Source: Chloroflexota bacterium
GTDB lineage: Bacteria; Chloroflexota; Ktedonobacteria; Ktedonobacterales; Ktedonobacteraceae
Direction of reading: 5' to 3'
NCBI GenBank assembly: GCA_005881495.1
Contig: VBHI01000055.1
Span: forward strand, 1-22,519
DNA length: 22,519 nucleotides
Shown here: positions 3,386 to 19,717 of the stretch, piece by piece
Layout of the letters: every line of letters starts with the position of its first letter
How positions within the stretch are numbered: the stretch's first letter is position 1
Program-made: the position numbers and the translations under genes
Notes under the pieces: generated by a model
Databases searched by the model: none
What the model was told of the DNA's origin: nothing
The model's input: only the letters and a program-made list of their open reading frames with translations

Positions 3386-5860
3386 TTGAGCACCCAGGTG
3401 ACAAGCTCTTTCAAAAAGATCACCACCCCCACGCAGCCACAGGCGGGCGGGAAAGGCGTTGCCCTTGGCGCTCTGACCATAGCCTGTATCGGCGTCTTTT
3501 TTACGGCGATGGACCAGACGGTCGTAGTGACGGCGCTGCCGCCTATTGCCAACGACTTGAATATCGGAGTGACCAAACTAGATCACGCGGCCTGGATTAT
3601 CAGCGCGTACCTGCTCGGTTTTGTGATTGCCATGCCGCTCATGGGACGCGTCTCTGATATCTATGGGCGGCGGCGTATCTTTTTACTTTGCCTGAGCATC
3701 TTTGGCATAGGTTCCATTCTCTGCGGACTTGCTCCTGTCTTTGGGCAAATGTGGGATCTGGGCTTTTTAAACGCCTTCAACATTGATACTTCTTCTCCAG
3801 GATTGATCTGGCTGATTGCCGCGCGTTTTATCCAGGCAGTTGGTGGTGGTGCGGTTGTACCGGTGGCGATGGCCATCGCGGGCGATTTTTATGGAGAACA
3901 GCGGCGTGCGCTGGCACTGGGTGTCATAGGCGCTGCCACCGAGGCTGGTGGGGTTATTGGCCCGCTCTATGGCGCGGTGATCGTACAGCAATTTGGCTGG
4001 CAATATATCTTCTATCTCAATGTTCCTATCGTAATTGGTTTGATGATCACGGCCTGGAGATTGATTCCCAGCGGGTCGCGCCTGCGCGAAGGTATCGACT
4101 GGGTTGGTACGGTTCTACTCGGTTTAGCGCTGACCTGCCTGAGCCTTGGCCTGGCTCAGCAAGGCACCGACCTTGGGCCAACTCCCGCCAACGCCCCTGC
4201 TCCACAAAATAATCCGATCGCCATTGGCCTGGCCATTGTTCTCCTGTTAGCCTTCGTACTGGTCGAGCGAAAAGTACGCTGGCCGGTAGTAGATTTATCA
4301 CTTTTCAAACGCCTTCCCTTTGGCGCGGCGTCGCTGGTAAGCCTCTTTGTAGGGGCTGCGCTGATTATTGCGATGGCCGATATTCCCATCTTTGTCGATA
4401 CCGTATTACAACGCCCGGTGCTTGATAGCGGACTTGCATTGCTGCGTCTCACCGCCATGATCCCGCTGGGAGCATTGGTAGGTGGCTGGCTCTGTGGCCG
4501 CATTACCTGCCGTTTTACGGGAGTGTTGGGGCTGCTCTTTACAGCGACCGGCTTTTACCTGATGAGTCGCTGGCCTATCCACGTCGACTGGAATCAGATC
4601 ACTATCAGTACAGTCACGACCGGTTTTGGTTTTGGGTTGGTGATTGCCCCTATTGGCACGACAGCGATCAATGCAGTAAGAGCCAGGCAAGCGGGTATGA
4701 GTTCCGCCATCGTCACCTCGCTGCGTATGGTGGGCATGATGCTGGGGCTGGCCGCGTTGACGTCCTGGGCTCTGGCATACTTCAAACAACTGGTCTCGAC
4801 CTATCCTTCGCTTCCCCTCACGGCGACGACTGCGCAGTTTGCGGATTGGTCAAGGGGTTATGCCGCTCATATTATTCAATCTGCACACACCGTCTACGGT
4901 GCCGTATTTTTCACCGCCATGGCGCTCTGCCTGATTGCCACTATTCCCGCCCTCTTCTTATGGGGCCGCAAGGCTGCGGTGGTTGAGCAGCTTGTGCCGG
5001 ATAGCAATGCCGCACCTGATCCACACGAAGCCGACACCGTGGTAGTCACGGTCGTCGCCGCGGCTGATGTTTCGATTGACCCTGCACTACCTGCAGAACT
5101 GGCTCAGCCACCACTGCCGCCAATCAATGGGAATGGAGGCAATGGAGGCAATGGTGGTAATATTGGACGCAATCCCAGGAAGCGGCGGCATTTGATTATA
5201 GCGGCGGCGAGCCTCATATTAGTCGTGTTGCTGGTCGTGGCAGGAGTATTTGCGGCCTTTCTGTGGCAAGCACCCGCTTCGCCTCTCACTTCAGCGCATC
5301 CAATGAATCCGGCAACTGCGACGCCTGTTTCCGGCCCGCGTATGATCCAGCTTGCCCTCGATCAGACGGCGCTCACCTCAATCTTTGTCTCGCAAATGGG
5401 AATGAAGCAAGGCGCATTGACCGATATGAAGGTCATGCCCATTCCAGGGGATGGAGTGATCATGAGCTTGAACTTGCACATTGACGCAAACGGTATTCAC
5501 CGGGTCATGCCGGTTGAAATGGATGGCGTCCTTGGCATCGATAAACAGCAAAACATTCAAATCCACGTGCTGCACCTTAGACGCGACGGCATAGACGCCG
5601 GCCCGGCGGCAGCCGCGAGCATGGGGAAGGCTGTGAACGAGCTGTTGATTAGCTCGCTTATGCCGGCGCTACATGGTCAATTCAAGGGTGTGAAACTCAT
5701 CTCTGCACACACCAATAAGTCAATCGGGTGTGCCAATGGAACAGAAATGTTTGTACTTTTGATCCAGGCACCTCCCATTCAGGGCATAGCAGCGCAACCG
5801 ACACCGGTACCATTCTGCTTCAAAGGCCCGATCGATCTCAATAAACTTCTACCGCATTAA
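3386..5860 (+). CDS. DHA2-type (EmrB/QacA) MFS exporter with extra C-terminal TM and extracytoplasmic domain
   Basis: A proton-coupled drug or metabolite exporter. Residues ~25-530 form a 14-TM MFS: TM1 carries FTAMDQTVVVTALPPIANDL (DHA2 type), motif A is GRVSDIYGRRR (~87), motif C is GGVIGPLYGAV (~187). Usual members have 480-550 residues, but this one has 824. After TM14 comes an acidic/Pro linker, then a GNGGNGGNGG tract (~581-593, encoded by 9-base repeats), a basic anchor (RKRR), an added TM (IIAAASLILVVLLVVAGVF, ~602-627) and a ~180-residue outer domain. That domain has beta-strand character with DGVIMSLNLHIDANG and resembles lipid-binding LmeA/DUF2993-like domains (inference). The start is TTG 3386 or GTG 3398. 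Neither has a good ribosome binding site, but a stop at 3326 rules out longer starts. It is 27 bases from the next gene, so the two likely form an operon. Confidence 0.85.
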   Translation: MSTQVTSSFKKITTPTQPQAGGKGVALGALTIACIGVFFTAMDQTVVVTALPPIANDLNIGVTKLDHAAWIISAYLLGFVIAMPLMGRVSDIYGRRRIFLLCLSIFGIGSILCGLAPVFGQMWDLGFLNAFNIDTSSPGLIWLIAARFIQAVGGGAVVPVAMAIAGDFYGEQRRALALGVIGAATEAGGVIGPLYGAVIVQQFGWQYIFYLNVPIVIGLMITAWRLIPSGSRLREGIDWVGTVLLGLALTCLSLGLAQQGTDLGPTPANAPAPQNNPIAIGLAIVLLLAFVLVERKVRWPVVDLSLFKRLPFGAASLVSLFVGAALIIAMADIPIFVDTVLQRPVLDSGLALLRLTAMIPLGALVGGWLCGRITCRFTGVLGLLFTATGFYLMSRWPIHVDWNQITISTVTTGFGFGLVIAPIGTTAINAVRARQAGMSSAIVTSLRMVGMMLGLAALTSWALAYFKQLVSTYPSLPLTATTAQFADWSRGYAAHIIQSAHTVYGAVFFTAMALCLIATIPALFLWGRKAAVVEQLVPDSNAAPDPHEADTVVVTVVAAADVSIDPALPAELAQPPLPPINGNGGNGGNGGNIGRNPRKRRHLIIAAASLILVVLLVVAGVFAAFLWQAPASPLTSAHPMNPATATPVSGPRMIQLALDQTALTSIFVSQMGMKQGALTDMKVMPIPGDGVIMSLNLHIDANGIHRVMPVEMDGVLGIDKQQNIQIHVLHLRRDGIDAGPAAAASMGKAVNELLISSLMPALHGQFKGVKLISAHTNKSIGCANGTEMFVLLIQAPPIQGIAAQPTPVPFCFKGPIDLNKLLPH

Positions 5861-5887
5861 GAAGGTTTCACGAGGAGATGAAGATAG

Positions 5888-7021
5888 ATGAGACAGTCGA
5901 AATACAGATGCTATGTTCAGGCTGGTTGGGTCACGTTGCTGTCAGCCCTCATGCTGAGCCTGGTGGTGACACCGGTAAGCGCGACGAGCAGCAGAGCTGT
6001 TCATGCAGCACAACGACTGGATAATGCCACATCTGTTGGCGCAAGCACGTACATTACAACAGGTACGCTGGTACCGCTCTTTCAGAACCGTATCGATCAG
6101 CATGTTCCCGGGGCGTTCAACAACGCTATCAACAATTTGGTGAGTACCCTGCCGAGGCAAGATCAGGGCTGGGCGCTGCAAATGGCAACTACGCTCATCC
6201 AGCCCTCTGCCACGTTAACCGGGCTTACGACGCAACCGGGTGGGCTGGTGACGTCATTGCGTATCAGCCTCTATCCTGGTGACCCACAACCAATTAACTC
6301 CAGTATGCTGGTGAGCTTCAGTGTGCTTGATTCGTCAACGATACAGGTCAGCGCAAAGCCGATCAATGGTAGTCCTACGTTGGTCAATGGGCCACTGGCA
6401 ACCTTCCAGATTCCCCTCGGTCAGCTTAATAGTATCAATACAACGCCTGCATGTGGCGATGCTGCCCTGGCGGTAAAACTGCAATTTCCTATTGCTCTGG
6501 GGCATACACAAACGCAGGTTCAACAAAACACGGCATTGAACGTCTTCGCCAGCCCGCGCGAGGTACGTAACACGCCCTCAACAAATACGAACGCCTACGT
6601 AGAACTTCCGGCCTCATCTCTGGCCTCGATTGGCGATAGCGTCGGAGACCTGCACATTAATACCAGTACGACAGCAAAAAATATCAACATTAGTGTGCAG
6701 GGGAGCAACCTGGTTATCAACTCGGATATTTACGACTCGTTCTGGGGCAAAATTGGTACGGCTACAACGACAGTAGCGCCGACAGCGGCAGGAGGAAATC
6801 TGGCTGTACACGTGTTGAGTACGACGATTACCATCCTAAATATATTCACATTCCCGTATGACAGCTACAATCAGCAGATCCAGCAGACATTGAACTCGAA
6901 GCTGAATGGTGCGCTGGCTGGCAAGTTTACCGTGACGCGGGCAGCGATTGGCCCCAACGCACAACTCCCCTGCGCTGCCGGCAATAGCCTTGTGCTGACG
7001 GGTAGCGCGAGTTTGGGATAA
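5888..7021 (+). CDS. Secreted protein of unknown function, operon partner of the MFS exporter
   Basis: The 377 residues begin with a signal peptide: basic MRQSKYRCYVQ, a hydrophobic core around WVTLLSALMLSLVVTPVSA, and possible cleavage after VSA or VHA. The mature part is Thr/Ser/Asn-rich with alternating hydrophobic strands and two cysteines (PACGDAA and LPCAAGN) that could form a disulfide. Two LmeA-like stretches start FQNRIDQHVPGAFNNAIN and YNQQIQQTLNSKLNGAL, an arrangement reminiscent of lipid-binding tubular domains (inference, weak). GAGGAG at 5872-5877 sets ATG 5888. It starts 27 bases after the exporter stop. The exporter itself carries an outer domain of similar style, so the pair may handle a lipidic substrate across the envelope. 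I cannot name the family. Confidence 0.75.
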   Translation: MRQSKYRCYVQAGWVTLLSALMLSLVVTPVSATSSRAVHAAQRLDNATSVGASTYITTGTLVPLFQNRIDQHVPGAFNNAINNLVSTLPRQDQGWALQMATTLIQPSATLTGLTTQPGGLVTSLRISLYPGDPQPINSSMLVSFSVLDSSTIQVSAKPINGSPTLVNGPLATFQIPLGQLNSINTTPACGDAALAVKLQFPIALGHTQTQVQQNTALNVFASPREVRNTPSTNTNAYVELPASSLASIGDSVGDLHINTSTTAKNINISVQGSNLVINSDIYDSFWGKIGTATTTVAPTAAGGNLAVHVLSTTITILNIFTFPYDSYNQQIQQTLNSKLNGALAGKFTVTRAAIGPNAQLPCAAGNSLVLTGSASLG

Positions 7022-7040
7022 GAGATACTGCATCGAAAAT

Positions 7041-7070
7041 GTAGGGGAGATGTGCATTGCGCTCCCTTAC
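7041..7070. terminator. Possible hairpin between convergent genes
   Basis: GTAGGGGAG and CTCCCTTAC can pair over nine positions (one G-U) around a 12-base loop, between the ends of the secreted-protein gene and the convergent methyltransferase gene. No T-run follows, so the terminator role is inferred from position. Confidence 0.3.
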
Positions 7071-7094
7071 AGATCACCCAGAACTAAGGAGATC

Positions 7095-8237
7095 TCACTC
7101 CGGCCCAATTATGGCAAAAGGCCAGCTCTGATCACCGATCGTGATCATGGCTTGATCTTCTGTAATACGCACTTTGTAGCCTGCCTCAGGATACAGATGT
7201 TCATACATCGCGATACTCTCTTTGATCTGTTCCTCCAGATGCTCACTATCTCCATACACTGTGATTCGATCATCATGAACCCGCACGGCAGCGCCAACTG
7301 ATGCTTGCTCTAACAGATACACATCAGGCTGATCTTTTCCAGCGTTCCAGCGATAGTGCTTGCTTACTCTTGGAAGTACGCATTGCAGCAGCAAGCTATA
7401 CGAGGTGTTATTGAGCAACTCAGTCAGATTGTCAGAAAGCTTCGCATCATGGCGAGGAAGTGCGTCATACTTCTTCCAATGTATGCCACTTCTCGATGGC
7501 AGACCACTTGGACTATGCATCTCCATGTACTGTGCGTCGATGTCTAGCAAACGACCTTCCAGGGTCGTTGAGTTGAGTTTCTCTAAACGTACGAAAATAC
7601 TCGCCAGGTTGAGAAGCACATTGCAGATGAGCACGCCACCTTGCTTCAATTGATACAGCCATGCACGTGGAATGTATTTTACGCCACAAGTCGCCAATAA
7701 GCGATCATATGGTGAATTAGCAGGATAACCAGCAAAGCCATCTCCACTGACAGCCAGCACATTTCCTGCTCTCGTATAAGACAGATGAAGCTTTGCAGTG
7801 CTCACCAGTTCTTCATCAATGTCGATACTTATTACCTGACCAGTACGACCAACCATGTGACCCATCAAGGCTGCATTGTAGCCCGTTCCGGCCCCGATCT
7901 CTTGTACGCGATGACCGCTTTGCAAATCTAAAGCTTCAAGCTGAACGGCCATGATGGAAGGCTGAGAACTGGAGCAGACTGGCCGCCCATGTGCATCTAG
8001 TTTTGTGACCAGCGGCTCATCTCGATAAATTGCTTCCAGCGATGGTGATGGAACCGGGTCCCAGGAAAAGCTATTTCCTTGTTGCTCGTAATATCGCTCA
8101 ATAAACAGATTACGTGGTACGCTCAAAAAAGCTTCACGCACGCTGGTTACAAGCGGTCGAGACAGGCGCCGCTCGATTTCTTCCACTAAACGATATCGAT
8201 ACGGTTGCGTATTGACGGCAGTATCTTGCTGGAGCAT
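7095..8237 (-). CDS. PIMT-family (L-isoaspartyl O-methyltransferase-like) graspetide tailoring enzyme, TgmC-like
   Basis: A 380-residue SAM-dependent methyltransferase. The N-terminal ~220 residues are protein-L-isoaspartate O-methyltransferase: VREAFLSVPRNLFIERYY, motif I VQEIGAGTGYNAALM, an acidic SAM loop ISIDIDEELV, and RLLATCGVKYIPRAW. Housekeeping Pcm is ~210 residues. The extra ~150-residue C-terminal domain is typical of PIMT homologues in ATP-grasp RiPP clusters (TgmC, the fuscimiditide enzyme) and in lasso clusters, where they methylate an Asp of the modified peptide to give an aspartimide. The start is ATG 8237, 23 bases after the ligase stop, with a weak purine-rich site (AGAAAGAG). 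It is the third gene of precursor-ligase-methyltransferase. It looks intact, although the ligase before it is broken. Confidence 0.8.
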   Translation of the reverse strand: MLQQDTAVNTQPYRYRLVEEIERRLSRPLVTSVREAFLSVPRNLFIERYYEQQGNSFSWDPVPSPSLEAIYRDEPLVTKLDAHGRPVCSSSQPSIMAVQLEALDLQSGHRVQEIGAGTGYNAALMGHMVGRTGQVISIDIDEELVSTAKLHLSYTRAGNVLAVSGDGFAGYPANSPYDRLLATCGVKYIPRAWLYQLKQGGVLICNVLLNLASIFVRLEKLNSTTLEGRLLDIDAQYMEMHSPSGLPSRSGIHWKKYDALPRHDAKLSDNLTELLNNTSYSLLLQCVLPRVSKHYRWNAGKDQPDVYLLEQASVGAAVRVHDDRITVYGDSEHLEEQIKESIAMYEHLYPEAGYKVRITEDQAMITIGDQSWPFAIIGPE

Positions 8238-8260
8238 CAGTTACTCTTTCTTATAGGTAC

Positions 8261-8924
8261 TTACGCTTCATTCCTCGCGGCCAGCAGACGCGCGAGGCTT
8301 TGATACAAGGGTAGATCTGTTGAACCATCTAGCCAGCCAAATTGTCCTACTGGATTGGTCTCAACGTACACATATCTGTTATCCGAGGTGTAGAAATCCC
8401 AGCAACTTATAGATGATCTTTCCACCACACTCTATATGAAACTGCTTCAACGCGTCAGGGTCGTTGGTAATGAGCGTGCGTGGGATATCTAAACCGAGCG
8501 AATGTGCTATTTGCAACTGGCGCGCTTTATACGATGCTTCACGGATCGCGTCTGGATGATTTACCCACAATCCAGGGATAGTACGTAAAAGGCCCCAAAG
8601 ACCCGATCTAGCCTCGCGCTCAATAAATTCTTTTTCTATTGCTGGCAGGGCTGTGTTCGCAGTGATGTGAGTTGGCCGGCGATACCACACACTGCCGGCC
8701 TCTTCCAAGTGGATCGGTCTTCCATCAGAGAGTAGTAAGCTGCTCTTACTACCAGCGTTACCAAGGCGGGCAATCAGCACAGCTTGAGTGGGAAAATCGC
8801 CGGGATCAAAAAGTACCCAGGGGTGATCGAGTTTGTCTAGCTCTATCACTAAATGGCTTACATGTGGATCATCACGGTTAGACAAAATAAGTGTTTTCTT
8901 TACGATAACATTCCTCTTCGTCAT
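8261..8924 (-). pseudogene. ATP-grasp graspetide ligase (TgmB/MvdD-like), internal deletion plus frameshift
   Basis: Intact enzymes (~320-330 residues) activate Asp/Glu side chains of the precursor with ATP to form omega-ester or omega-amide crosslinks. Here residues 1-~175 from ATG 8924 match the N-terminal half: TLILSNRDDPHVSHLVIEL, FDPGDFPTQ, SVWYRRPTH, then the first ATP-binding lysine GGKIIYK. The frame then runs into LLGFLHLG and stops at 8379. In the other frame, directly at that point, the family C-terminus appears: DFYTSDNRYVYVETNPVGQF, GWLDGSTDLPLYQSLARLL, stop 8261-8263. The two halves abut, so about 95-110 residues between the lysine and the metal-binding E-x-N motif are gone. These include the Q-E and D-x-R segment needed for catalysis. 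The start overlaps the precursor gene by 47 bases. Confidence 0.8.
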
Positions 8925-9144
8925 CTTCCTCGTCTTCGTCGTATATAGGATCAAGTTTGCTCGTGCCATCATTTGACGTCTCCTCGCTATCGCTAGTGGT
9001 GACCTTTCCAAACAATGGCGAAGGGTTTTTTGGCAATGGCACATATAAAAACTGCATGCCAAAGGGAGAATCTTGGCGTGCCTGAATATGCTCTAGCTCT
9101 GGTGAATGATAAATAGGATTCTCAGTTTCTATGGTAGAGGACAT
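8878..9144 (-). CDS. Graspetide precursor peptide, TgmA-like
   Basis: An 88-residue peptide, substrate of the neighbouring ATP-grasp ligase. ATG 9144 has a strong GGAGAGGGG site upstream. A longer in-frame start at 9225 would run past this site and overlap the promoter. Leader residues 1-47 contain SPFGMQFLYVPLPKNPSPLF. The PFG[LM]xF motif is the recognition element of ATP-grasp-targeted RiPPs. The presumed core (48-88) is rich in Thr/Ser acceptors (TTSDSEETSNDGTSK) followed by ten consecutive acidic residues (69-78) and a tail CYRKENTYFV, consistent with ester/amide crosslinking. Its last codons overlap the ligase start. It has no cleavage GG motif. Core boundaries are inferred. Confidence 0.75.
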   Translation of the reverse strand: MSSTIETENPIYHSPELEHIQARQDSPFGMQFLYVPLPKNPSPLFGKVTTSDSEETSNDGTSKLDPIYDEDEEDDEEECYRKENTYFV

Positions 9145-9216
9145 ACTAACCCCTCTCCTAATCAGACAAGCAGCAACACGCACTTCCATAATAGCACTAC
9201 AGTCGACGACATCGTC

Positions 9217-9245
9217 AGTGTACAATATCGTCTACTATCAGTCAA
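9217..9245 (-). promoter_or_regulatory. Sigma-70-type promoter of the graspetide operon
   Basis: On the minus strand TTGACT (9240-9245) and TACACT (9217-9222) are separated by exactly 17 bases. Transcription would start near 9210, giving a leader of ~65 bases before the precursor ATG at 9144. GACGAT occurs both in the spacer and just after the -10. Confidence 0.55.
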
Positions 9246-9302
9246 ACAAAATATCATAACTAACCCTGCCAACGCAGTTAAGATGATTGCAGATTTTCCC
9301 CA

Positions 9303-9331
9303 TTGCATTTTCCACGTATTAGGTGTATATA
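9303..9331 (+). promoter_or_regulatory. Candidate radC promoter
   Basis: TTGCAT (9303-9308) and TATATA (9326-9331) are 17 bases apart in the region divergent from the graspetide operon. Both boxes are imperfect. The leader would be about 35 bases. Confidence 0.3.
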
Positions 9332-9372
9332 AGGTTCAGCAAACCACTCTATAAAATAAGGAGAGGCCCCCT

Positions 9373-10107
9373 ATGATGCCTACCGTCGAAAAAGCCTCTG
9401 GTAAACTTGCCCTCGTCAAACTCGAATACCACCCCACCATCCATGACATGCCCACCGAAGAACGACCGCGCGAACGACTCCAACACTATGGCCCCAAGGC
9501 CCTCTCAACAGCGGAATTGCTGGCTATTATCTTGCGCACCGGCACATCGCGCGACAACGTGATCGAGTTAGCCGGCAAGTTACTGGCGAAATACGGCGGT
9601 CTCAGCGGCCTGATGCGCGCAGAATTTAGTGAACTATGTACGGAGCATGGACTGGGAGAAGCCAAAGCCTCGCAATTGAAGGCCGCTTTGGAGATGGGAC
9701 GGCGACTTGGTATGCTGCAAGATGATGAGAAATACCAGATTAAATCTCCTGCCGACGCGGCCAATCTGGTGATGCCAGAGATGATGTATCTGGATCATGA
9801 GCAGATGCGGATTTTAGTCCTGGATACGAAAAACCAGGTCATGGAGAATTTCAGCCGCTACCAGGGCACGGTCAACAGCTCGGTCCTGCGCGCAGCGGAA
9901 ATATATCGCCAGGCCATTATTCGCAACTGTCCTGCCGTGATCATCTGTCACAATCATCCCAGTGGAGACCCGACGCCTTCGCCTGAGGATATCCAGGTTA
10001 CCGAGCAGTTGGTTGAGGCGGGAAAGCTTCTAGATATTGAGTTAGTCGATCACATTGTAATTGGGAGCCACCGCTTTGTCAGTTTGAAAGAGAGGTTGCG
10101 CTGGTAA
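9373..10107 (+). CDS. radC: RadC family JAB-domain protein (UPF0758)
   Basis: The 244 residues have the standard RadC layout. The N-terminal helix-hairpin-helix region is ~40-110 (LSTAELLAIILRTGTSRDN, then LCTEHGLGEAKASQLKAAL). The C-terminal JAB/MPN metalloprotease-like domain is ~125-244 with the JAMM signature HNHPSGDPTPSPED: His193, His195, Ser203 and Asp206. The biochemical role is unsettled; the original repair assignment was withdrawn, and the family is often tied to mobile DNA and recombination. ATG 9373 follows AGGAG (9359-9363), with a second ATG immediately after. The gene is single, divergent from the graspetide genes, and ends 8 bases before the large palindrome shared with lon. 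Confidence 0.93.
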   Translation: MMPTVEKASGKLALVKLEYHPTIHDMPTEERPRERLQHYGPKALSTAELLAIILRTGTSRDNVIELAGKLLAKYGGLSGLMRAEFSELCTEHGLGEAKASQLKAALEMGRRLGMLQDDEKYQIKSPADAANLVMPEMMYLDHEQMRILVLDTKNQVMENFSRYQGTVNSSVLRAAEIYRQAIIRNCPAVIICHNHPSGDPTPSPEDIQVTEQLVEAGKLLDIELVDHIVIGSHRFVSLKERLRW

Positions 10108-16502: not shown

Positions 16503-17258
16503 TTAATTTTTCTTTGCCGGCGGTGTCAGTGTAAATGCTTTGTCGACATTAATGTCACCGTGGAAGCTGAAAGATTTCAACCCTTTGATGGCGCTGGCGT
16601 TGATGCTCAGATCAATAGTGGGGCTGTAACCGCTTTGCTTCTGGATAAGAATAGTGTACGAAGGTTGTCCATTCACTTTCTTTACCACGTGGGGAACATA
16701 CCATGAAAGTGAGATATAGGAGATGCAGTTCTTCGGCGTCTCCGTGAGACCTCCCCACATCGCGCGACCCGCTAAATCGCTCCTCAGTGCTGTTGGTGAG
16801 CCAAGGCTGTCGATCACCCAGGGTGTATTGAATCCGCCCCGCAGGCCCAGAGAATAATTCCCACTGGGACAGTAACGAGCGTTGCTTGGAAAGGATGAAC
16901 TATACTGGCTGCACCCCGTCGGTACAGGTGTTGAACCACCTCGCTTTGGTGACGGCCCCCTTGATCTGGGTCTGCAGAGCGGTCTTCCTGTGTCAAAACC
17001 ATCACCGCTGATGAATTGAGCGTTCCTGGGAGCATAGACGCGAATATAATCGGCATAGGTATCGAAGCCGTAGACAGGCCCTCTTTGCTGGTAATTGAGA
17101 GTGATAGTCAGGTTATGCGTCGCTCCGCCATGAGCGTCCAGCGTCACGGAGTCTTGCTCGGTGGTATGCACATACTGGCTGGCTTTGCTGATACTGATGT
17201 TCGCTTGCACGGATATAAAACCGTCCTGCTTATCGAACGTATCGATCGAGCCGCTCAA
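16503..17258 (-). pseudogene. DUF4012 protein, 3' fragment after frameshift
   Basis: This frame continues the upstream DUF4012 gene. Coherent sequence can be followed upstream of the nominal TTG start (17258) as NPAAEAWLAEHGLSGSIDTF, the typical link before FISVQANISISKASQYV, so the true join is near 17300. The rest is the beta-rich C-terminal part of DUF4012 proteins (ATHNLTITLNYQQRG, YADYIRVYAPRNAQF, GDGFDTGRPL) with Cys pairs, ending TLTPPAKKN. It has no ribosome binding site or signal of its own, and would probably not be made alone unless by frameshifting. No slippery heptamer is visible at the overlap. Confidence 0.7.
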
Positions 17259-19717
17259 GCCATGCTCAGCCAGCCATGCTTCTGCTGCTGGATTACCTTT
17301 GCATGACGTACACGGTCAAGCATCAATTTGCCAAGTGTCGAAGTAAAAGCTTTACGACCAGCATGAGAATAATCTCCGCTGATCTGTTTCTCTCGTGCGA
17401 TAGCCGAGAAGTCTTGTTGATAGTAGTGGAGGCGCTCTTCTAAGTTCTTTGAAGTTATCGTCTCGTTATATCCTGGTACTTTGATCGGGCCAATAACGTC
17501 CAGGATATGTCCAATGAGCGTGGGTGTGAAGGCGATATCGCCATCAATCGGTCCCCCGCCCTCATCCTGGTAGAGCTGCATTGTCATACGCGCAGTAGTG
17601 GGGAAATCGCCGGACAGGTTCGAGTCGCGTACGCCCCAGTTTCCAAAATTCATCCAGCCATATCCCGGAGGTGCGGTACGCCCAATAGCCGTGCCATTTT
17701 CAGCATAGTCGATAAGCGTGACATCTTTCAGCGTAAAGGGGGACATACGGCCGTCCTGTATCTGCAAAATGCCGTATTGTCCGGTGAAACCACCGCCCGG
17801 TCGTATTTCTGCCCTGTCCATTGTCTGTACCAGGTAACGGCGCTGCTGGCCTGCACCCAGTAACCAGGCAGCTATACCAATCAATCCCTGGGCCTGCACG
17901 ATCATATCTCGCGCATTTGGCAACAAGTCCAGGACGGAAACGAGTTGCTGTTTCTGTTTATCGCTGATAGGTATATCTTTGATGGATACCTGGCTCATTT
18001 GCTCTTGAATATCGTCGATGTAGTAGAGGGCATGAACCATTGCACCTTCAATGGCAGTAACATCTGCAACACTGATAACGGGCTTGGTGGACCCGCTGGA
18101 GAGAGGCAAACCATGGATGATGTTTGCGCCGATAAGAGCAATGCCACTCAGCTCATTCCCCATGCGTGAGACGTCCAGAGCGACCTGCACCAGCCTTTGC
18201 GCCATGTCCAGTTTATTCGTATACTGTGGCGCGAATTGCGTAATGGCAGCCTGGACATCAGTGCGATTCACCAGTTGTTGCAATTGCACGAAATCACCTT
18301 CCGCCGCCTTAAACTCGATTTGTGCCTGTTGTAAATTATTTGCGTTAAGTGCTGCTGTCGGATCGCTCTTTGAGATAGGGAGTAAACTTTTTACCTTCAG
18401 CAGGTGATTGATCCCATCGTGCGCGATGCCACTGATATTATTATAGGCACTATAGGCGGCGAATCCCGCGCTTACAGGTACCAGGATAAAGAGCAAAATT
18501 GTGGCGATTACGGCTAAGCTGATAAATTGTAATGAACGCCACTTTATATGGTGAGTGTGTTCATCGCGCAGCCAGCGCTTGCGTACCATGCGTCGCTGTA
18601 GCGCTACCTTCCTGGCGTTGGTATCGTTTCGTCTGATGTACGCTGGCGCAAATGGCACGAGGGTAGTGTTAGAGCGAGCGGGCAGCAGCGTCTGCTCCTC
18701 TGCATGACCATTCAGAGCTGGAAGCCCTGTCCTCTCCTCTTCATGTACGTCGTCTGTTATTCTTACTGCCACAACAATTGCATTTCGCGCGTCGGAAGGT
18801 ACTGGAACGTTATCGTGGGGTTCACCATCGCTATCGTTGAGGTGCTCTGTTATTGTTTCTTCGCCGTCTAGAAGGACAGGTTCTGTCTCCAGAGTTGTTT
18901 CGTCGACAATTGTCTCGTCCTGGTCCGGGGAAACCTCTTCTATCTGCTCAGGCTCTGCAATTTCCTCATTGTCACCAGCGGCAAGCATGTCTGCTTCTAA
19001 GGTTGCTTCCTCGATCACATGCCCCACCTCCACATCTCCCTCTTCCGCATCGATAATTTCCTCTTCCATAGTAGCAGAGGTATGCTCAGCTTCCTGTGAT
19101 GCGGCAGGAATCTCTTCTTCCTCTTCCGTCAATGGCACTAGTGTACCAGTAGGTTCATCGAAAGAGGCAGAGTCTTCTACCGTCGCTTCTTCATGAGCCA
19201 GCAGGGGTGCTAATGTGACGGTAGGTTCATCCTTGCTGTCAAGTATTTCTTCATCCGCGAGGGGAGCCGTTGTATCTGCCTCTGTAGAGGTAGGGCCTGC
19301 CGAACATTCCGTGAGGGTCTGCGTGCTTTCTTCAGCTATTTCAGGTAATGCAGGTATTTCAGCCGCCTCTTCGGTAGCAGGTTGAGGAGAATGATCTGCA
19401 ACATTGGCGCCAGGAAGCAAAGCACGAAATCCCCAGGGAGTGCCATCTGGATCCAGCATCAAACATCGTTCAACCAGTTGCATGAGACTCTCAGACGAAA
19501 TATGGTTCAGCTGCGAAATTTCATCGATGGTGGCTTCGGTTGTAAAGTACTCTTTAATAGCGGATTTACGTTTATAATATTTTTTCTTTGCTCGCGCGCT
19601 TAGTGATGAGATATTTTCTTCCTGCCAGGAAGAGATGTCGCGCATCCGCTTAGCGAATTTCGGAGTGTTTCCCACTCGTGCTCCAGGCAAGGCGCACCTC
19701 CGCGGTTCTATGTACAT
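17255..19717 (-). CDS. DUF4012 membrane protein, 5' portion of a frameshifted gene, with transposase-like N-terminal domain
   Basis: The 820 residues of this frame include: ~45-110, a helix-turn-helix-like region (KRKSAIKEYFTTEATIDEIS, then LMQLVERCLMLDPDGTPWGF) resembling the N-terminal domain of Ktedonobacteria transposase/integrase proteins; ~115-330, an acidic, Glu/Thr-rich disordered stretch; a basic patch (RRMVRKRWLRDE); a TM at ~392-421 (ISLAVIATILLFILVPVSAG); then an outer DUF4012 domain with its signature GQQRRYLVQTMDRAEIRPGGGF. The family is widespread in Gram-positive-type bacteria and its function is unknown. After LGKLMLDRVRHAK the frame degenerates into VIQQQKHGWLSMA and stops, while the family sequence resumes in another frame. 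About 20-25 residues expected at this point seem missing. ATG 19717 has no clear ribosome binding site. Confidence 0.75.
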   Translation of the reverse strand: MYIEPRRCALPGARVGNTPKFAKRMRDISSWQEENISSLSARAKKKYYKRKSAIKEYFTTEATIDEISQLNHISSESLMQLVERCLMLDPDGTPWGFRALLPGANVADHSPQPATEEAAEIPALPEIAEESTQTLTECSAGPTSTEADTTAPLADEEILDSKDEPTVTLAPLLAHEEATVEDSASFDEPTGTLVPLTEEEEEIPAASQEAEHTSATMEEEIIDAEEGDVEVGHVIEEATLEADMLAAGDNEEIAEPEQIEEVSPDQDETIVDETTLETEPVLLDGEETITEHLNDSDGEPHDNVPVPSDARNAIVVAVRITDDVHEEERTGLPALNGHAEEQTLLPARSNTTLVPFAPAYIRRNDTNARKVALQRRMVRKRWLRDEHTHHIKWRSLQFISLAVIATILLFILVPVSAGFAAYSAYNNISGIAHDGINHLLKVKSLLPISKSDPTAALNANNLQQAQIEFKAAEGDFVQLQQLVNRTDVQAAITQFAPQYTNKLDMAQRLVQVALDVSRMGNELSGIALIGANIIHGLPLSSGSTKPVISVADVTAIEGAMVHALYYIDDIQEQMSQVSIKDIPISDKQKQQLVSVLDLLPNARDMIVQAQGLIGIAAWLLGAGQQRRYLVQTMDRAEIRPGGGFTGQYGILQIQDGRMSPFTLKDVTLIDYAENGTAIGRTAPPGYGWMNFGNWGVRDSNLSGDFPTTARMTMQLYQDEGGGPIDGDIAFTPTLIGHILDVIGPIKVPGYNETITSKNLEERLHYYQQDFSAIAREKQISGDYSHAGRKAFTSTLGKLMLDRVRHAKVIQQQKHGWLSMA

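Follow-up and report, generated by a model that had tools for sequence, protein, structure and literature searches.

A probable disrupted graspimiditide cluster with its own precursor family in an apparent relative of the Ktedonobacteraceae

The window, a 22,519-nucleotide stretch of DNA that we infer to come from a bacterium related to Ktedonobacteraceae, carries what is probably a group 13 graspetide (graspimiditide) cluster in disrupted form, whose precursor belongs to a separate family. Among relatives the family most likely represents group 13 graspetides with a new precursor variant. A precursor, an ATP-grasp ligase and a PIMT-type methyltransferase follow one another on the minus strand, in the order that the first-pass annotation had given them. 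We file the cluster as Tgm/fuscimiditide-like because TIGR04187 and TIGR04188 are the best NCBIfam matches, the genes stand in tgmA-tgmB-tgmC order and some precursor relatives seem to share contigs with ligases. The earlier claim of a Tgm/fuscimiditide-like cluster holds for the family; in this copy the ligase lacks its central part.

Gene layout and the break in the ligase

The cluster region comprises the following features.

8878–9144, minus strand: precursor peptide of 88 residues, with PFGMQFL leader motif (27–33), core (T49–D71), acidic run (D69–E78) and lineage-specific tail (C79–V88); supported by 18 relatives, an alignment and position counts
8379–8924, minus strand: N-terminal part of the ATP-grasp ligase frame, 181 residues to a premature stop; TIGR04187, PF21068
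8261–8377, minus strand: ligase C-terminal remnant in another frame, 38 residues and a stop, beginning RYVYVETN; from translation, the same residues closing the ligase relative P0141
7095–8237, minus strand: intact PIMT-type methyltransferase of 380 residues with an extra C-terminal domain; TIGR04188, PF01135, tree and structure model
9217–9245, minus strand: promoter-like site TTGACT-17-TACACT; not above chance

The ligase ATG (8924) falls inside the acidic codons of the precursor, giving a 47-nt overlap between the two frames. Upstream of the precursor ATG lies AGGAGAGG, and directly before the ligase ATG the purine-rich acidic codons end in GAGGAAG, so that these codons may double as the ribosome site of the ligase. 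The overlap looks special to the window lineage, since in P0145-like relatives the ligase start Met aligns with residue 9 of the window ligase, which is Val. The promoter called clear at first pass does exist as a site, but a scan of 6900–9500 found four promoter-like sites where shuffled sequence gave 3.4 (sd 1.6), a chance-level count, and we dropped it as supporting evidence. Rfam matched nothing within the window at gathering thresholds. On the plus strand, a DHA2-type MFS transporter (3386–5860; TIGR00711, 182.7 bits against a cut-off of 230.2) has a C-terminal extension of ~300 residues, and the next ORF, of 377 residues, has no match in Pfam (span of the two, 3386–7021); the exporter was left out of the cluster because of its opposite strand and the intervening ORF.

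As judged by profile matches, the ligase frame is of the TgmB type. It matches TIGR04187 (E 2.4e-41, 142 bits) above MvdD (86 bits, E 3e-24) and MvdC (71 bits, E 8.8e-20) and contains the PF21068 pre-ATP-grasp domain (E 1.6e-7), the TIGR04187 match covering profile positions 3–166 of 312 only. The frame stops soon after IYKLLGF, and the last 38 residues sit in another frame. Where P0141 (93% identity over 72% of the query) carries 114 residues between these two landmarks, the window shows 16 bases, a gap of ~326 bases (~109 central residues) that is not a multiple of three. That the ligase is broken here had been implied by the first-pass proposal to look for relatives "with an intact ligase". 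Where group 13 calls for a working TIGR04187-type ligase, the window offers the right family in a broken frame, and we therefore file this copy as disrupted. Without its central part the ligase would be unable to cross-link, and, if the sequence is correct, nothing cross-linked should come from this copy.

Ligase breaks may not be unique to the window copy. Four intact ligase relatives cover the whole of TIGR04187 (286–300 bits, cut-off 350), and a profile built from 14 relatives hits ATP-grasp ligases of solved structure (5ig9, E 9.6e-55; CdnC, 4.9e-51; AMdnB, 1.4e-47). Among the 120 listed of 194 ligase relatives, 25 fall short of 305 residues, and six of the 25 (P0142, P0160, P0176, P0210, P0214 and P0216) continue into foreign tails of at least 9 residues after different points; some of these breaks could be explained as assembly errors.

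An assembly error could also lie behind the window break, in which case the ligase would be intact in the living organism and the cluster an ordinary working one, of the same family and mechanism. We regard this as possible while leaning against it. P0140, with 99% identity over 98% of the query, is open through the break point, and two other genes in the window look cut. One is a short plus-strand ORF (119–328) whose residues 14–54 align with positions 1–41 of the 510-position GH35 beta-galactosidase model NF051902 (E 1.4e-14); it reads as a cut fragment because the rest of the gene is absent. The other is a minus-strand DUF4012 protein (17255–19717; PF13196, E 1.1e-24) that overlaps by 4 bases an ORF in another frame (16503–17258), which may be its continuation; a 9-base direct repeat (17258–17266 and 17272–17280) marks the joint. 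The six foreign-tailed ligases, broken at different points, fit repeated real loss as well as they fit repeated error.

The precursor family

The precursor recovered 18 relatives besides the window's own protein from a database of 5.8 billion proteins, at E-values (1.1e-26 to 2.9e-7) that put them beyond chance. All 19 aligned precursors share the core ETSNDGxSKLD followed by acidic residues, with E, T, S, N, D, G, S, K, L, D, D and D of the core invariant. The leader motif P[FL]G[LMI]xF[FLI] occurs in 18 of the 19, the exception (P0011) being a fragment that starts downstream of it; the window's own PFGMQF confirms the PFG[LM]xF motif reported at first pass. Every precursor has Asp-Gly between the core Thr (window Thr56) and the core Asp (window Asp65). 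Relative to the core Thr, 17 of the 18 relatives have Thr at −6, and 11 have Thr or Ser at −4, a position taken by Asp in the window. In all 18, Asp occupies both +4 and +6 counted from the core Asp. A PFG leader element with Thr, Asp-Gly and Asp nested behind it is the precursor pattern of group 13, and at the level of pattern this family displays it.

The acidic run is more variable: at its longest it reaches 10 residues in the window and P0011, 8–9 in eight relatives and 4–5 in the other nine, and five of the 18 relatives have just four acids at the C-terminal end. Only the window and P0011, among the 19, begin the tail with ECYRK. P0011 has the core and ECYRK as in the window and then continues differently, so the region behind the precursor differs there. 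The tail is also present in a strain whose ligase is open past the break, since the N-terminus of P0140, a ligase on another contig, is an other-frame reading of window-type precursor DNA. To judge from the alignment, what makes the core unusual is mostly common to the whole family and agrees with the Thr / Asp-Gly / Asp order reported for graspimiditides; the ten-acid run and the odd tail vary locally. The first-pass description of the core is thus accurate as to the ten consecutive acids (D69–E78) and the CYRKENTYFV tail; its suggestion of a core outside any described group gives way to one shared family-wide.

Existing models do not see these peptides. Pfam matched none of the 19, and TIGR04186, the TgmA precursor model, matched none of six family precursors at E up to 10, nor the window's 88-residue precursor at E up to 1; in a control it recognized all four reference TgmA sequences given to it (of six fetched). 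The precursor HMM check proposed at first pass misses the family members given to it, and mining by Pfam or TIGR04186 would overlook the family as far as these members show. Literature searches did not find the core strings TSNDGT, SNDGSSKLD or SNDGTSKLD, which published lists of graspimiditide cores may still contain, or any work on graspetides in Ktedonobacter. Chloroflexi are covered by one review (PMC13001092), and the main text of PMC8939145 mentions neither Chloroflexi nor Ktedonobacter.

A microviridin-like product, in which the invariant Lys63 would be amide-linked to a downstream acid and the methyltransferase would play a secondary part, appears improbable. The family does not vary at Lys63 or at the +4 and +6 acids, the ligase shares its fold and pre-ATP-grasp domain with MvdC/MvdD systems, and its profile also matches the solved graspetide ligases named above. 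Nevertheless, TIGR04187 outscores both Mvd models, the window encodes a PIMT-type partner, and the four characterized products of the methyltransferase-linked group are reported to carry Thr-Asp esters (PMC13001092).

Linkage elsewhere and the methyltransferase

Some precursor relatives seem to share contigs with ligases. We compared contig sizes among the 18 precursors, 120 of 194 ligases and 120 of 508 methyltransferases, taking 60 offsets as the chance level. Four of the 18 precursors paired with a ligase on same-size contigs (8072, 1475, 2272 and 11958 bases; chance mean 0.3, maximum 2), as did 14 methyltransferases with ligases (chance mean 0.9, maximum 3). Two pairs were counted as chance: P0051/P0239, a methyltransferase-ligase pair whose 1441 bases are too short for both genes, and P0013/P0100, the sole precursor-methyltransferase pair, whose 1024 bases leave no room for a ligase between. 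Linkage outside the window rests on these equal sizes and on the N-terminus of P0140. The first-pass annotation had named a lack of precursor relatives beside ligases as the outcome that would undo its reading; relatives do exist, some of them apparently on ligase contigs.

The proposed search for the same trio with an intact ligase yielded intact ligases in relatives but no second locus with all three genes in genome-contig, viral-contig or plasmid searches; the full trio was seen only in the window. In a scan of genome contigs the methyltransferase hit a single locus, a PIMT of Lokiarchaeota with 26% identity, in a genome with no TIGR04187 match. Viral contigs scanned with the ligase and precursor alignments gave nothing confirmed, and among plasmids no relative of the precursor P0005 was found and all ligase matches lay below 60% identity.

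The methyltransferase matches TIGR04188 best (E 3.2e-62, 211 bits, cut-off 380) and also matches PF01135 (E 8e-38); three relatives score 209–230 bits against the same cut-off. It joins TgmC in the tree (SH-aLRT 99), with 29.5–29.6% identity to annotated TgmC over 88–91% of its length. The match and the tree together place a PIMT-type methyltransferase in the cluster, as in group 13. The long C-terminal domain said to resemble those of RiPP-associated PIMTs is present in the structure model (pLDDT 90.4) as strand 262–266, helices 271–275 and 278–287, strands 291–296, 305–310, 316–321 and 324–329, and helix 332–348, the order of elements reported for such domains (PMC10787088). A WXXXGXP motif near the C-terminus is described as conserved in lasso, graspetide and imiditide methyltransferases (PMC13001092); its strict form is absent from the window enzyme. 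Across 121 sequences (the window and 120 of 508 homologues, 107 of them at least 340 residues long), 26 have the strict motif, 52 a relaxed one and 43 neither.

With precursor and methyltransferase frames open and the ligase frame not, the window could be taken for an imiditide-like system whose methyltransferase would modify the strongly acidic precursor directly, in linear form and with no ligase involved. Imiditides and pamtides likewise pair a precursor with a methyltransferase bearing the same kind of C-terminal domain, the Asp-Gly is invariant, and imiditide enzymes are thought to recognize linear substrates by charge (PMC13001092). We consider this very unlikely: graspimiditide methyltransferases are reported inactive on linear precursors (PMC13001092), the precursor's leader is of the ligase type, the two intact genes flank a ligase remnant, and the relatives keep a ligase to which they appear linked. 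Just as much a long shot is a lineage that, having lost its ligase, uses the methyltransferase on the linear acidic precursor, a graspetide cluster turning imiditide-type; if true, a family with breaks at several points would show how ligase-free imiditides arise from graspetides. That the enzyme is a housekeeping protein-repair Pcm lying by chance beside a graspetide remnant is hardly credible despite a PIMT-like catalytic domain that closely fits Pcm structures, given its extra C-terminal domain, 211 bits to TIGR04188 against 108–124 to Pcm models, and the distance of three of four Pcm sequences in the tree (E. coli, R. etli and Limimaricola; an annotated Chondrocystis pcm fell elsewhere), so that the grouping with Pcm which the first-pass annotation held would count against it did not appear.

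Predicted product and comparison with known clusters

Returning to the group 13 reading, the chemistry can be sketched from fuscimiditide, in which two Thr-Asp esters are reported to nest around a loop before the methyltransferase forms an aspartimide (PMC12291112, PMC13001092). In relatives with intact genes, the ATP-grasp ligase would recognize its precursor by the PFG leader, the PFG part of the RPFG motif being the reported graspimiditide recognition sequence (PMC13003496). It would link hydroxyls of Thr/Ser that precede the Asp-Gly with side chains of Asp that follow it, shaping the core into a nested stem-loop. The methyltransferase would act second, on Asp59 just before Gly60, and this methylation would lead to an aspartimide in the loop. 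Applying the fuscimiditide pattern to the core, and in window numbering, the likeliest links would be Thr56–Asp65 (an 8-residue loop) and Thr50–Asp71, with an extra link from residue 52 to Asp69 where residue 52 is Thr or Ser; an alternative inner link would be Thr56–Asp69 (a 12-residue loop). Reported graspimiditide loops span 10–12 residues, and the shorter predicted inner loop counts against this reading. The group 13 filing is further weakened by ligase and methyltransferase relatives that score under curated cut-offs, by the TIGR04186 miss and by the missing WXXXGXP motif.

The fuscimiditide cluster (ThfA/ThfB/ThfM, group 13) resembles the window in its three gene types, its PFG leader element, and a loop that holds the methylated Asp between an upstream Thr and a downstream Asp (PMC12291112, PMC13003496). 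It differs in core sequence and in an inner loop of 10 residues rather than the predicted 8 (or 12), and the window adds a long acidic end, a broken ligase and named relatives outside the Actinomycetota. The tgmA-tgmB-tgmC loci of Streptomyces plasmids (TIGR04186, TIGR04187, TIGR04188) share gene order and enzyme families, but TIGR04186 leaves the window precursor unmatched, and the ligase and methyltransferase found here form a divergent branch under both cut-offs.

According to a 2026 review, 99% of 1326 catalogued group 13 clusters come from Actinomycetota and few from Chloroflexi (PMC13001092). Ligase breaks at several points raise the question whether the methyltransferase keeps a role without a ligase. 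In this family the named relatives belong to the Ktedonobacteria, the core (ETSNDGxSKLD) is compact and strongly conserved, the predicted loop may be smaller than those reported, and relatives keep intact ligases.
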